Part shown: one piece after another, positions 54,933 to 59,870 of the stretch
Position numbering within the stretch: position 1 is the stretch's first letter
How the letters are laid out: each line of letters starts with the position of its first letter
NCBI GenBank assembly: GCA_030651375.1
Contig: JAUSFM010000015.1
Location: 1-64,000 of the forward strand
Reading direction: 5' to 3'
Length of the DNA: 64,000 bases
From: Candidatus Woesearchaeota archaeon
GTDB lineage: Archaea > Nanobdellota > Nanobdellia > Woesearchaeales > UBA12501
Program-made: the position numbers and the translations under genes
The notes under the pieces: model-generated
Databases searched by the model: none
What the model was told of the DNA's origin: nothing
What the model saw: the letters and a program-made list of their open reading frames with translations, nothing else

Positions 54933-55141
54933 ATTTTCATATCTCTTTTTTTCCGTATTCTTTAGAACTAAAAAAGAAATAAAAATGCACAGCTCAGCAG
55001 TTACTTCCCTCTGCCACTGCGGCACGGGTGTTCACTTAATCACGGCTGTGCAGCATGAAGAATGGTGCACTAGTATTTAAACCTTTATCAGTATGCTCCA
55101 TCCCCATCAAATTTTTAAACAAAAAATCAATTGTTCTTTCT

Positions 55142-56296
55142 ATGGATTACCGTGATCATATCCTCCAGATGGTGAGCATGAAAGGCCCGATTTTGCCGGC
55201 ACACATAAACCGTGACCTGAAGCGCGACCTCATTTTCACCGCCGCCATGTTGTCCGAGTTGGTGGACAACAAAAAAATGAAGCTCACCCGGCTCAAGGTC
55301 GGCGGCTCACCGTTGTATTACCTTCCCGGACAGGAGCACCGGCTCCAGTATTTTTCAAAACATCTCCATGAAAAAGAGCAAAAGGCCTACGAACTTTTGC
55401 GCACCAATAAAATTCTTGCCGACCGCGAGCAGGAGCCAGTGATTCGCGCGGCGCTGCGTGAAATTAAAGATTTTGCCATGCCGCTTGATGTGACCACCGG
55501 CGGCGCAACCACCTTGTTCTGGAAATGGTATCTCCTGCCACCTTCTGAAGCAGAAACACTCATCAAGGAAAAAATGCTGGGCGTGCAAACCCCCACAGCA
55601 TCAGTGCCCTCTGTTTCGCCAGCATCTTCTTCGCCTCTCTCTGCAATTCCTTTTCCCCTCTCTTCGTCGCCATCGTCGGTTTTTGATGCGATTCAGGAGC
55701 ATAAAAAACAGCTGCTGCAAGAGCTTAGCAACGTGCCTCAACAGATTCCTGTTTCTGAACAAAAACAACCACCTACCCCCTTGCCCTCCTCACCACATTC
55801 GTCATTGCTTTCATCCTCTCAACCAGTGCCGGTGGTAGTGCCCTTGCAAGAACTCGTTGCCGGCAAAAAACAGAAAAAGAAAAAAACAGAAAAAGAAAAA
55901 CGCGTAGAATTCAGTGATCACCAAGAACTGCAGCAAAAACTCAGCGAAGAACAAGAACTGTTCGCGCCGCTTGCCGAGCCAACCGATGACGATTTTTATC
56001 ACACAGTCAAAAAATACTTCGACGCCAATACCATCATCATCAAAAAACTATCCATCATCAGAAAAAACAGCGAGCTTGAAGCAGACATCAGCGTCGCCAG
56101 CGCAGTCGGGCCACTTGCATTTTACTGTCGGGCAAAAAACAAACAGCGCTGTTCAGAAGGAGACCTGAGCACCGTATTTCTTGAGGGTCAGCGCAGAAAA
56201 TTACCCGTGCTGTTTCTCATCACCGGTGAGATTACAAAAAAAGCAACAACCTTATTAAGCAGCGAGTTTACCACAATCACTATCAAAAACCTATAG
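55142..56296 (+). CDS. winged-helix protein with possible PD-(D/E)XK-like domain
   Basis: The 384-residue protein has an N-terminal winged-helix domain (YRDHILQMVSMKGP, INRDLKRDLIFTAAMLSELV, LKVGGSPLYYLPGQE), a helical domain, a long Ser/Pro/Gln-rich linker (about 160-255) with a Lys-rich patch, and a C-terminal domain of about 105 residues. There, ELEADISVASAVGPLAFYCRAKNK resembles a (E)...D...K restriction-endonuclease-like core. ATG 55142 fits the TATA box at 55111-55120; longer upstream frames are not supported. FEN1 follows eight bases later, so it is probably a DNA-repair or replication partner. The function is unknown. Confidence 0.6.
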   Translation: MDYRDHILQMVSMKGPILPAHINRDLKRDLIFTAAMLSELVDNKKMKLTRLKVGGSPLYYLPGQEHRLQYFSKHLHEKEQKAYELLRTNKILADREQEPVIRAALREIKDFAMPLDVTTGGATTLFWKWYLLPPSEAETLIKEKMLGVQTPTASVPSVSPASSSPLSAIPFPLSSSPSSVFDAIQEHKKQLLQELSNVPQQIPVSEQKQPPTPLPSSPHSSLLSSSQPVPVVVPLQELVAGKKQKKKKTEKEKRVEFSDHQELQQKLSEEQELFAPLAEPTDDDFYHTVKKYFDANTIIIKKLSIIRKNSELEADISVASAVGPLAFYCRAKNKQRCSEGDLSTVFLEGQRRKLPVLFLITGEITKKATTLLSSEFTTITIKNL

Positions 56297-56303
56297 GTGG
56301 GGC

Positions 56304-57338
56304 ATGGGAACCAAACTCAAAGACCTCGTCATCAAACAGCCAATCACCATTGACGAGCTGAAAAATAAAACACTCGTCGTTGATTCGTTTAACGTTCTGT
56401 ACCAGTTTCTGACGACGATTCGCATGGGAGACGGTTCGCCGCTGCGGGATTCAGCAGGAAATATCACCTCGCACCTGAACGGCCTTTTCTATCGCACAAC
56501 CAACTTGATGAACCGTGGCCTGCGCCTTGCGTTTGTTTTTGACGGCAAGCCACCGGCGCTGAAAGCGCAGGAACGTGAGAAGCGAAATCAGGCAAAAATT
56601 GAGGCGCAAAAAAAATATGAGCACGCCGCTGCCGAAGAAAACATCGAGGACATGAAAAAATATGGGGCGCGCACCGCCCGCCTGACAAGCGAGATGGTGG
56701 CTGAGGCAAAAAAACTCATTGAAGCGCTTGGCCTGCCCGTTATTCAGGCGCCTTCGGAAGGCGAAGCGCAGGCAGCTTTCATAGTGGCGCAGGGCGATGC
56801 CTTTGCTGAAGTCAGTCAGGATTACGACTGCGTTGTCTTCGGCGTTCCCCGCCTTGTGCGAAACCTCACAGTGTCTGAAAAGCGAAAACTGCCGAGCAAA
56901 CTTGCATACCAAACCGTGGCGCCGGAGCTAATCACACTGAAAGATAATCTCAAATCATGGGGCATTTCACAGGATCAGCTCATTGCCCTTGCTATGCTCG
57001 TTGGCACTGATTTTAACCCGGGCGGCATTCACGGCATCGGCCCGAAAAACGCGCTGAAGCTGGTGAAGAAACATGACACCCATTTTGACGCGCTCTTCAA
57101 AGAAGTCAAATGGAGCGACCATTTTGACACTGACTGGCACGAAATATTTGACACGTTCAAGCACATTCCGACGACAACCGATTATGCGCTTTCGTGGAAG
57201 CCCATCAACACTGAAAAAGTCGTTGAGCTCCTCTGTGAGGCGCACGATTTTTCAAAACAGCGCATTGAAGAGCACCTTGCGAAACTGAGTGAAGCGCAGA
57301 AGGGAAAAAAGCAGAAAGGATTGGGTGACTTTTTCTAA
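56304..57338 (+). CDS. fen: flap endonuclease FEN1
   Basis: The 344-residue protein is a complete archaeal FEN1: MGTKLKDLV start, LVVDSFNVLYQFL, FDGKPPALKAQE, the acidic catalytic residues in PSEGEAQAAF and SQDYDCVVFG, GTDFNPGGIHGIGPKNALKL (helix-hairpin-helix), and a PCNA-binding C-terminus QKGLGDFF (residues 337-344). It cuts Okazaki flaps. It is in an operon with the winged-helix/PD-(D/E)XK-like gene. Confidence 0.95.
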   Translation: MGTKLKDLVIKQPITIDELKNKTLVVDSFNVLYQFLTTIRMGDGSPLRDSAGNITSHLNGLFYRTTNLMNRGLRLAFVFDGKPPALKAQEREKRNQAKIEAQKKYEHAAAEENIEDMKKYGARTARLTSEMVAEAKKLIEALGLPVIQAPSEGEAQAAFIVAQGDAFAEVSQDYDCVVFGVPRLVRNLTVSEKRKLPSKLAYQTVAPELITLKDNLKSWGISQDQLIALAMLVGTDFNPGGIHGIGPKNALKLVKKHDTHFDALFKEVKWSDHFDTDWHEIFDTFKHIPTTTDYALSWKPINTEKVVELLCEAHDFSKQRIEEHLAKLSEAQKGKKQKGLGDFF

Positions 57339-57400
57339 CATCGCTTTTCCCCTCCTATGTCTCCACAAACTTAATAAGCTCTTTTCTCACCAATCGCCGT

Positions 57401-58969
57401 ATGCAACTTCGAGAAGCCCTTACTGGAAGATTAACTGAAAAAGAATTAGGAATTCTCCGCGCATCCTATGACACTGTTGGCACCATTGCTATTCTTGAAA
57501 TCTCTCCGCTTCTCAAAAAAAAAGAAACACTTATTGCACAAGCACTGCTCGATACCAACTCGCACATCAAAACCGTGGTGAAGAAAAAAAGCATCAGGAG
57601 CGGAAAGCTTCGCCTCCAAGACTACACTCATCTGCTCGGTGAAAAAACCACAAAAACAGTTCACAAAGAAAGCGGGCTTGAGTTTCTCCTCGACATCAAA
57701 GATGTTTATTTTTCAGTCCGCCTCTCTTCCGAGCGCCTGCGGGTTGCCCAGCAAATAAAAAAAGGCGAGCTCGTGCTCGTGCTGTTTTCCGGCTGTGCTC
57801 CTTATCCCTGCGTTTTTGCCAAGCACAGCCCGGCAAAAATGATTTATGGCATCGAGTTGAACAAAGAAGGCCATTGGTATGGCCGTGAGAATGTGGTGCG
57901 CAACCGAATTCAAAATGTGTTTCTCATGCAAGGTGATGTTAAGAAAATCTTGCCGGAGATAACCAGACACCTAACCGGATTGAAATGCTCGCTGAACTCC
58001 TCCGAATTCAACACCGTCATGAAACAAAAGCCCTCGTTGGTCGAGCTGTATGTGACCTTCGAAGAATGCATGAGTCCTGTGCTGCTTGAAAAGCGCATCA
58101 AAACCCTTATCACCTATAGCATCGAGCCGGTTGTGCACGCGCCGTGGAACGAAAACGGTGAAAGCACCAGCCTTGCTGCTGATGGCACGCGCCTTGCCAG
58201 AAACCTGCATCTCTATTTCACGCTCGGCAAGCTGGCCAAAAAATACAACATGAAAGTTATTATCCACGCTGCCCACGAGCATGAAGAACGCAGCGACCAC
58301 CGGAAACGCATGCTTGAGAATGTTCCCAAACTACACGACTATTTCCGCTGGTTTTATTTCGAGAACATTGTTCGCTCCTGCAGCAAAAGCCTTACCGACC
58401 TCCAACAGCTCATTGGCTGCGGCATCAAAAATGTGTGCTTTGACACCTGTCACCTGTATGAAGATTTTAAAGACAATAAACTCATGCTGAAAACAGTTGA
58501 AGAATTATTCAACTTGCCGGTCAACCTTTATTTCCATCTTGCGGATTCCGACGGCAGAATCCACGCCATGGAAATCGGCAAAGGAAAGGTTGATTTCAAG
58601 CAGATTGTTCCTTTCTTGACGTCAGGCATTGCCGAGATTGACTGCAAAAATTATAAAAAACCTGGTGAGATGATTCGCAGCAGAAATTTGCTCGGTGCGT
58701 ACCCCAAAAAATTCGATCGGATTCTCATGCCCCTTCCCAAAAGCGCTGAGTCGTTTCTCGGCATCACACTTCAGGCAATCAAGCCCGGTGGCATTATCCA
58801 TTTCTATGATTTTGCCCATGAAAGCGAAATGCCAAAATCAAGCATTGCGAAAATAGGAAAGGCCTGCGCACAGGAAAAGAAAAAATACCAAATTCTTTCA
58901 TGGAACGTGTGCGGAACCTATGCGCCCGGGAAACACCGGGTGTGTGTTGACATTCGTGTCTTGAACTAA
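57401..58969 (+). CDS. Trm5-like tRNA methyltransferase with inserted TIM-barrel domain
   Basis: The 522-residue protein has two parts of a class I SAM methyltransferase resembling archaeal Trm5: residues 1-190 (TVGTIAILEISP, LVLVLFSGCAPYPCVFAK, YGIELNKEGHWYGREN, GDVKKILPEI) and residues 435-522 (KFDRILMPLPKSA, KPGGIIHFYDF, KHRVCVDIRV). Between them about 240 residues form an AP-endonuclease-IV/xylose-isomerase-type TIM barrel, with candidate ligands H246, H289, E321, D348, H351, H379 and E412 in order (VVHAPW, IIHAAHE, YFENIV, CFDTCHLYED, YFHLADSDGRIH, AEIDC). Trm5 alone makes m1G37. The insertion sits between motifs for SAM and the NPPY-type catalytic loop (MPLP). The combined function is unknown. 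Confidence 0.75.
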   Translation: MQLREALTGRLTEKELGILRASYDTVGTIAILEISPLLKKKETLIAQALLDTNSHIKTVVKKKSIRSGKLRLQDYTHLLGEKTTKTVHKESGLEFLLDIKDVYFSVRLSSERLRVAQQIKKGELVLVLFSGCAPYPCVFAKHSPAKMIYGIELNKEGHWYGRENVVRNRIQNVFLMQGDVKKILPEITRHLTGLKCSLNSSEFNTVMKQKPSLVELYVTFEECMSPVLLEKRIKTLITYSIEPVVHAPWNENGESTSLAADGTRLARNLHLYFTLGKLAKKYNMKVIIHAAHEHEERSDHRKRMLENVPKLHDYFRWFYFENIVRSCSKSLTDLQQLIGCGIKNVCFDTCHLYEDFKDNKLMLKTVEELFNLPVNLYFHLADSDGRIHAMEIGKGKVDFKQIVPFLTSGIAEIDCKNYKKPGEMIRSRNLLGAYPKKFDRILMPLPKSAESFLGITLQAIKPGGIIHFYDFAHESEMPKSSIAKIGKACAQEKKKYQILSWNVCGTYAPGKHRVCVDIRVLN

Positions 58970-58974
58970 AAGAA

Positions 58975-59562
58975 TCACGGCCGTATCCACTTGATATCAT
59001 AATACGTGACTGAATCTTCTTCATCCACCACACCGATGAGCAGGTGTTTTTTGGTGCTGTGCGCCACGCGGTTCTTTGCGCTGAATTCGTACCACGTCAT
59101 GGTTGAGCCCTCATGCACCGGATACACAATCCACTTGGCGTGGTCTTCGCCCGGCTTGACGCCGCGCTCGTACACGCGAAAGTCAGCGCCGAACTTGAGC
59201 GCTGTTTTCACAATAAATCCTCGGTTGCGCAGGTCTTTGAAAACGCAGTACTTAATCCAGAACATCGACTCAATTTTTTCTGCGCGGCGAACGAACTGTT
59301 CCTCGCTCATCGGCCTGCCGCGTTTGTCAAGAATGTCCAGTTTTCCTTTTTCAAACAGAAACAATGCCTCGATGAACGTGAGCCGGACACGCTGCCTGCT
59401 GATTGCCCCGAATCTGCTCTGTTCGTAGAATACACGCGCTGCATCGGAATTTTCAGTCAGCACACGCTCGGCAACCATGGTTGCCGCGACTTTCTTTTCA
59501 CTTTTCTTGTCCGTTGTTACGTCTTTTGATTCCTGCTTCTGTTCAATCTTTTCTGGTGTCAT
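58975..59562 (-). CDS. endA: tRNA-splicing endonuclease EndA
   Basis: The 195-residue protein is a homotetramer-type archaeal EndA. The C-terminal domain has the catalytic triad Tyr (FRVYERGVKPG), His (EDHAKWIVYPV) and Lys (STKKHLLIGVV), and ends SVTYYDIKWIRP. The N-terminal leader (EKIEQKQESKD) is charged. The frame is open upstream through the tRNA region, but ATG 59560-59562 is the sensible start; a short acidic leader starting from TTG about 60 bases earlier cannot be ruled out. tRNA-Arg lies just upstream on the same strand. Confidence 0.9.
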   Translation of the reverse strand: MTPEKIEQKQESKDVTTDKKSEKKVAATMVAERVLTENSDAARVFYEQSRFGAISRQRVRLTFIEALFLFEKGKLDILDKRGRPMSEEQFVRRAEKIESMFWIKYCVFKDLRNRGFIVKTALKFGADFRVYERGVKPGEDHAKWIVYPVHEGSTMTWYEFSAKNRVAHSTKKHLLIGVVDEEDSVTYYDIKWIRP

Positions 59563-59680
59563 AGTATTCTCCACAGCGCTGCGTTCTGCCACGATTTGTG
59601 CTGCAGGCAGTGCTGCTTCAATTGTGCTTAGATAAACATAAATGATATTAAAACCTTTGCTTTTGAACAAAAAATAAAAA

Positions 59681-59746
59681 TACGGACCCGGTGGGATGTA
59701 AACCAATCTTTTTTGCTGGCGCAAAAAAGCTTGCACAACGATTGGT
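59681..59746 (-). other. tRNA 3'-end-like fragment and hairpin
   Basis: Bases 59681-59705 (TACGGACCCGGTGGGATGTA then AACC) repeat, with a few changes, the 3' end of the tRNA-Arg at 59796 (TACGGGCCCGGTGGGATTTG then AACC). Next to it, ACCAATC (59702-59708) pairs with GATTGGT (59740-59746), enclosing a hairpin TTTTTTGC-TGGC-GCAAAAAA (59709-59728). It could be a decayed tRNA, an integration-site scar, or a structured small RNA downstream of the tRNA. Confidence 0.45.
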
Positions 59747-59795
59747 GATGTGTCGAAACGCCCCAGACCACGGGCTTCTGGCCTATTACCCAATA

Positions 59796-59870
59796 CGGGC
59801 CCGGTGGGATTTGAACCCACGACCCCCAGCTTAGAAGGCTGGTGCCCTATCCAGACTAGGCTACGGGCCC
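59796..59870 (-). tRNA. tRNA-Arg (anticodon UCU)
   Basis: On the minus strand the gene has acceptor arms GGGCCCG and CGGGCCC, a D-arm, an anticodon stem CCAGC/GCTGG around the loop CTTCTAA (anticodon TCT), a T-arm GTGGG-TTCAAAT-CCCAC and discriminator G. There is no intron and no encoded CCA. A TATA-like element lies at 59896-59907, 27 bases or so upstream. Confidence 0.93.

Follow-up and report, generated by a model that had tools for sequence, protein, structure and literature searches.

The stretch analysed here (hereafter the window) is 64,000 nucleotides of contig JAUSFM010000015.1 from a Candidatus Woesearchaeota archaeon (GCA_030651375.1), and it carries a gene in which one enzyme domain is nested within another. 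The gene (57401–58969, + strand) is read in a single frame of 522 codons without a break, and its 522-aa product combines a Trm5a/Taw22-like methyltransferase with an inserted barrel, as delimited by ORF translation, Pfam and AlphaFold2. From its N-terminus, and always on the + strand, it comprises a D2 domain (TYW2_N_2, residues 3–83, 57407–57649, Pfam), the N-terminal half of a class I methyltransferase (residues 86–187, 57656–57961, with E111, the SAM motif FSGCAPYP, GIELN and GDV, located by Pfam and structure alignment), a TIM barrel (residues 189–434, 57965–58702, delimited by Pfam, AlphaFold2 and Foldseek), and the C-terminal half of the methyltransferase (residues 435–522, 58703–58966, delimited by alignment to Trm5 structures). 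The D1 domain of Trm5b is missing in the window copy, and several fused relatives carry some 70 additional N-terminal residues.

In the window protein, Pfam matches TYW2_N_2 at residues 3–83 (4.5e-17), TRM5-TYW2_MTfase as two stretches, the first at residues 86–186 (6.2e-37), and AP_endonuc_2 at residues 234–406 (5.4e-7). Membership of the TYW2_N plus TRM5-TYW2 methyltransferase family is borne out by Pfam scores of 127.5 bits against 28 and 62.4 against 27.7, and solved Trm5 structures cover residues 18–183 and 437–521, skipping the middle of the protein. AlphaFold2, supplied with an alignment of nine fused proteins, models the whole product at pLDDT 86.7 and pTM 0.85, with the class I strand order broken by an alternating beta/alpha barrel whose predicted strands start at residues 192, 213, 242, 285, 318, 344, 375 and 408, and whose final helix spans 422–431. 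An earlier note, made from the letters of the DNA, had described methyltransferase motifs split between residues 120–190 and 435–522 around a whole inserted barrel of about 240 residues: these limits proved right within a few residues, the insert (~245 residues) lies between ~188 and ~435, and the barrel modelled alone is predicted to be a separate domain (pLDDT 87.8, pTM 0.88) that matches xylose-isomerase-fold enzymes. The barrel enters the fold once the GDV strand (strand 3) and its following helix are complete, ahead of strand 4, which ends in MPLPK. Judged from class I topology, this loop would lie on the side opposite the SAM/G37 pocket, and methylation could therefore continue.

Among solved structures, the best sequence match of the protein is Trm5b (5yac, 2yx1; 3e-39), and Foldseek returns Trm5b/Trm5a for the methyltransferase (4e-21). 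Structure alignment makes R71, E111 and P446 the counterparts of R145, E185 and P267 of MjTrm5, the latter two of which we take to be active-site positions. R145 is an active-site residue in MjTrm5 (PMC5372744). R71, D179, P444 and P446 are unchanged in all 26 fused proteins, and E111 is either E or D. The hallmarks of Trm5b are absent: N265 of NPPY is replaced by P444, giving P-L-P-K, and the ORF begins at D2, without D1. The protein has instead the P-x-P-K that stands in place of NPPY in Trm5a/Taw22, as P444-L-P-K447 (58730–58741, +), which matches both the N265/P267 region of MjTrm5b and the PTPK of P. abyssi Trm5a/Taw22; in the latter, P-T-P-K is thought to permit imG-14 as an additional substrate (PMC7761594). 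The score for the NCBIfam Trm5a/Taw22 equivalog is below the cut-off (152 bits vs 550), in a model that assumes a contiguous protein. The original description of a Trm5-like enzyme thus stands as to the family, and is refined to the Trm5a/Taw22 motif type. The fused gene is the sole Trm5-family gene of the window genome, in which a search for a normal trm5 elsewhere returned no other Trm5 gene and one extra weak match below the cut-off. The outer part of the protein is a complete methyltransferase of Trm5a/Taw22 type, and it probably makes m1G37.

Formation of imG2 requires Taw1 in the cell. Neither Taw1 (PF08608) nor Taw3 (PF02676) has a match in the window genome, rated 100% complete, so that plain m1G37 is the likely product, and the PF08608 match expected alongside imG2 formation of the Taw22 type is missing there. 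Most relatives of the window genome have Taw1. The N. equitans-type dual enzymes are nearest to the window methyltransferase in motif, and the wyosine pathway seems to have been lost in the window genome while the Taw22-type motif persists. Across genomes, Taw1 occurs in 21 of 26 barrel carriers and 43 of 54 others (Fisher p=1.0), Taw3 in 14 of 26 and 34 of 54 (Fisher p=0.47); the barrel as a component of the wyosine pathway was accordingly rejected, its presence being unlinked to either gene.

The barrel itself belongs to the AP_endonuc_2 clan by score when taken alone (32.6 bits vs 31.1), and by its predicted fold, the whole protein scoring slightly under the threshold (30.0). By sequence, the closest solved relatives of its profile are endonuclease IV (2e-4), UVDE (4e-4) and APN1 (8e-4), in alignments that pair their ligands with the putative ones of the barrel, while Foldseek places the D-tagatose 3-epimerase-like structure 3wqo first (1e-8), followed by other 3-epimerases, YcjR and then UVDE (2e-6); structural alignments to D-tagatose/D-psicose 3-epimerase and YcjR run at 8–18% identity. 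The D-tagatose/D-psicose 3-epimerase family binds a single metal through E-D-H-E ligands, with a D-x-x-H motif. For endonuclease IV, the ligand numbering that we assume is H69, H109, E145, D179, H182, H216, D229, H231 and E261. Seven of these nine ligands are conserved in the barrel, and appear in the order that the earlier note had proposed. On the + strand, alignment places putative metal ligands at H246 (58136–58138, the H69 position), H289 (58265–58267, H109), E321 (58361–58363, E145), D348 and H351 of D348-T-C-H351 (58442–58453, D179 and H182) and H379 (58535–58537, H216), and E412 (58634–58636) would correspond to E261 by order in the alignment of fused proteins, outside the printed alignment. 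D229 is absent, and H388 (58562–58564, +), near H231, varies between H, D, E and Y. Two further positions stand out in the alignment (both +): K195 on strand 1 (57983–57985), kept in 25 of 26 fused proteins, and E215 on strand 2 (58043–58045), kept in 26 of 26.

K195, E215, H246, H289, E321, D348, H351, H379 and E412 are all present in 22 of 26 complete fusions; among the remaining ones, G002 lacks H246, G279 lacks H351, and G030 and G271 are degenerate. This conservation accompanies a barrel-to-barrel identity of mostly 25–35%, and barrel dN/dS ranges from 0.04 to 0.25, the barrel being under tighter constraint than its host methyltransferase in a pair from family f41. Since most copies keep their ligands under such purifying selection, most barrels are probably selected as enzymes, and their identity as active metal-dependent enzymes in most carriers is well supported at the sequence level. 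Their net charge extends from -13 to +23, and is often neutral or negative. A separate gene of the window genome (G000:C3:173785) matches the Nfo model TIGR00587 under its cut-off, a model to which the barrel has no match at E<=0.001, and endonuclease IV-like genes separate from the barrel occur in 39 of 45 genomes tested. The barrel as the only AP endonuclease of the cell was rejected, given the separate gene.

The fused gene is preceded by a FEN1/XPG flap endonuclease (56304–57338, +), which adjoins trm5 in relatives whether or not they have the barrel, and followed by the tRNA-splicing endonuclease EndA (58975–59820, - strand), found in the trm5 cluster of many relatives. A recurrent Woesearchaeota cluster, RNase Z - EndA - winged-helix-like gene - FEN1 - EamA transporter - trm5, occurs with or without the barrel (L069, L080, L141, L146), and is rearranged in the window (55055–59820), where FEN1 is preceded by a 413-aa ORF (55055–56296) that has no Pfam match and neighbours FEN1 in relatives too. 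No sugar genes were noticed beside barrel fusions in the neighbourhoods inspected by eye. An origin in a defence system or phage was rejected, the matches being weak and at chance level.

The same insertion, sought in other DPANN genomes, is present at the same site in 32 sampled genomes: 28 of 353 from the same Woesearchaeota order, spanning 17 family groups, and four in other families of the class. The 28 carriers of the order comprise 26 with a recognisable barrel (E<1e-37), on broken contigs in two cases, and the degenerate G030 and G271. Full-length fusions were found in 14 (window included) of 99 relatives searched, and in most of the others the same methyltransferase is free of the insert, its halves lying 0–11 residues apart in nearly all copies checked. 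Small differences aside, the insert always lies between GDV(K/R)xxxP and (K)xFDRIxMPLP. Independent assemblies with the same architecture include JAGLGH010000297, JAHIUF010000017, PCVE01000124, DAOVBM010000004 and JANQNC010000001, and the named carrier records are Woesearchaeota/Nanoarchaeota MAGs. An initial single-sequence scan of the contig collection gave no match; the scan beyond the phylum relied on exact motifs, recovering just part of the known carriers. In the open-access literature searched, no paper was found that joins Trm5 with this barrel, with endonuclease IV or with a Woesearchaeota fusion.

Fused proteins are scattered over the methyltransferase tree, with 16 label changes, at least 4 of them forced, and a single clade of all fusion methyltransferases was rejected (AU p=0.0012). 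Both states occur within families f1 (that of the window), f9, f21, f36, f42 and f60, and even within genus g48, where trm5 lacks the barrel in G050 and has it in G166 in the same gene cluster (RNase Z-EndA-winged-helix gene-FEN1-EamA-trm5, in part named by sequence inspection). The G166 barrel shares 76% identity with family f41 and 31% with G165 of its own family. The methyltransferase of G166 is a mosaic: the N- and C-terminal ends resemble G165 (54–75%), residues ~187–508, barrel included, resemble family f41 (74–79%), and informative sites in the flanks split 24:3 vs 18:62 (0 of 200 permutations, methyltransferase sites alone). Grouping of G165 with G166 is rejected in the barrel tree (AU p=0.0003). 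The G166 barrel was thus demonstrably imported with its flanks from another lineage, in a transfer that must be old since synonymous sites are saturated. Further swaps hinted at by larger trees (G027/G142 and G074/f7) were not significant on testing.

Other copies are decayed or free-standing. The degenerate fused barrels L014 (G030) and L064 (G271) are 192–208 residues long and retain few or none of the metal ligands, with methyltransferase motifs intact. Free-standing barrels are found in G125 (L061, 252 aa), which also has a contiguous Trm5, and in G092 (L050, 260 aa), and the two group together within fused barrels in an unrooted tree. The G125 barrel lies near HisRS-like and MazG-type pyrophosphohydrolase-like genes (by eye). 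The Trm5 of G092 (L068, a 424-aa ORF without the GDV motif) carries, close to the insertion site of the barrel, some ~150 residues that do not resemble it and are possibly a remnant. The barrel insertion is no one-off: it recurs, and it is exchanged laterally.

Taken together, the fused gene product appears to be a genuine two-in-one enzyme, undescribed in the papers searched. The reading that we consider rather probable is a two-domain and probably bifunctional protein: a Trm5a/Taw22-type methyltransferase that holds, in a permissive loop, an accessory active metal-dependent barrel probably acting on bound tRNA. The outer methyltransferase would produce m1G37 on tRNA, unaffected by the insert, and the inner TIM barrel of the AP_endonuc_2 clan would act, in a metal-dependent way, on the tRNA or tRNA end held by the methyltransferase. 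The likeliest chemistry, tentatively, would be multi-metal phosphodiester or ribose-phosphate chemistry of the endonuclease IV/UVDE kind on the held tRNA or a fragment. Barrels would pass from one lineage to another by homologous recombination within the conserved methyltransferase sequence on either side, as in the one case shown, and barrel activity would be accessory, since most relatives lack the barrel, two copies are dead and two genomes have it free-standing. Several points count against a nuclease acting on tRNA: the fold search on the predicted model ranks sugar epimerases above nucleases, the aligned counterparts of D229 and H231 are respectively not conserved and variable, the charge is not consistently basic as that of a nucleic-acid enzyme might be, the free-standing G092 and G125 barrels show that fusion is not always needed, and barrel presence does not follow Taw1 or Taw3.

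Does the barrel act on tRNA at all? It could instead be a small-molecule enzyme, either a hydrolase or one akin to the epimerases/isomerases of sugars or sugar phosphates, that is a free rider: its substrate would be unrelated to tRNA, and fusion to an essential gene would serve only to secure its steady expression. Its top structural matches (D-tagatose/psicose 3-epimerase types and YcjR), the retained common E-D-H-E set with the strand-2 glutamate, the free-standing barrels and a frequently neutral or negative charge all suit such an enzyme, but two further conserved residues, H246 and H289, are ligands of the endonuclease IV/UVDE type, these nucleases are favoured by the sequence profile, no co-localised sugar gene was noticed by eye, and a methyltransferase site that has been used again and again suggests a connection with tRNA; this main rival appears rather unlikely, though far from negligible. 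A barrel that is now mainly structural or tRNA-binding, with catalysis lost or irrelevant, would account for the degenerate barrels retained in G030 and G271 and for the loss of one ligand each in G002 and G279, but every main ligand persists in 22 of 26 fusions despite low barrel identity, and dN/dS stays well below 1, which makes it improbable. We give similarly little credence to a mobile, splice-free in-frame cassette of nuclease type, invading one exact trm5 site across Nanoarchaeota by means of recombination and a nuclease activity of its own, then persisting, decaying and being lost in an intein-like cycle without splicing. Such a homing-like cycle would fit the one point of insertion within a conserved gene, the patchy distribution, allelic empty sites, decayed copies and the import with flanking co-conversion; against it, Pfam finds no intein (Hint) or homing-endonuclease (LAGLIDADG/HNH) domain, just one transfer is clear, ordinary recombination suffices without a nuclease, and the f41 pair has a barrel more constrained than its host. 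We also know of no sequence-specific DNA cutting by the xylose-isomerase/endonuclease IV fold. That two genes were joined artificially, by the assembly or a frameshift, is vanishingly improbable: the frame is open throughout, the barrel is nested within the methyltransferase and not set end to end, and the fusion recurs in independent assemblies and lineages, so that a frameshift or assembly join, the objection that the earlier note had raised against itself, was excluded, and a chimera was rejected with no supporting sign found.

The finding matters for two reasons. In archaea and eukaryotes, Trm5-type m1G37 methylation maintains the reading frame, and a second metal enzyme inside the only Trm5 of many DPANN archaea would point to an unrecognised reaction, which may be linked to tRNA or tRNA turnover. 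The filled, empty, decayed and swapped versions of one locus also amount to a natural experiment on the insertion, exchange and loss of enzyme domains in essential proteins. Trm5 and the barrel superfamily are each well known; the open-access papers searched contained no account of one nested in the other, nor of this arrangement recurring or being exchanged laterally.

Among known systems, Trm5a/Taw22 (P. abyssi Trm5a, PDB 5hji/5wt1; N. equitans Trm5a) shares with the window protein the D2 domain, the class I methyltransferase and P-x-P-K, and N. equitans Trm5a is the only Trm5 of its genome, as in the window genome (PMC7761594); the window protein differs in its 245-residue barrel before strand 4, and its genome in having no Taw1/Taw3 matches. 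Compared with Trm5b (5yac, 2yx1), it lacks D1, has P444 for N265 and carries the inserted barrel. With endonuclease IV, APN1 and UVDE, the barrel has in common the fold and a series of ligands in the order H, H, E, D, H, H, E, but it falls ~40 residues short of the 285 aa of E. coli endonuclease IV, lacks D229, has a variable H231, and adds the near-invariant K195 and E215 and a location inside a methyltransferase. The fold and E-D-H-E ligands of D-tagatose/D-psicose 3-epimerase and YcjR also fit the barrel, to which H246/H289 are added. Lastly, inteins and homing endonucleases likewise occupy one site of a conserved gene patchily, with lateral transfer and decay, whereas the barrel has no splicing or known homing domain, and the insert remains in the protein.
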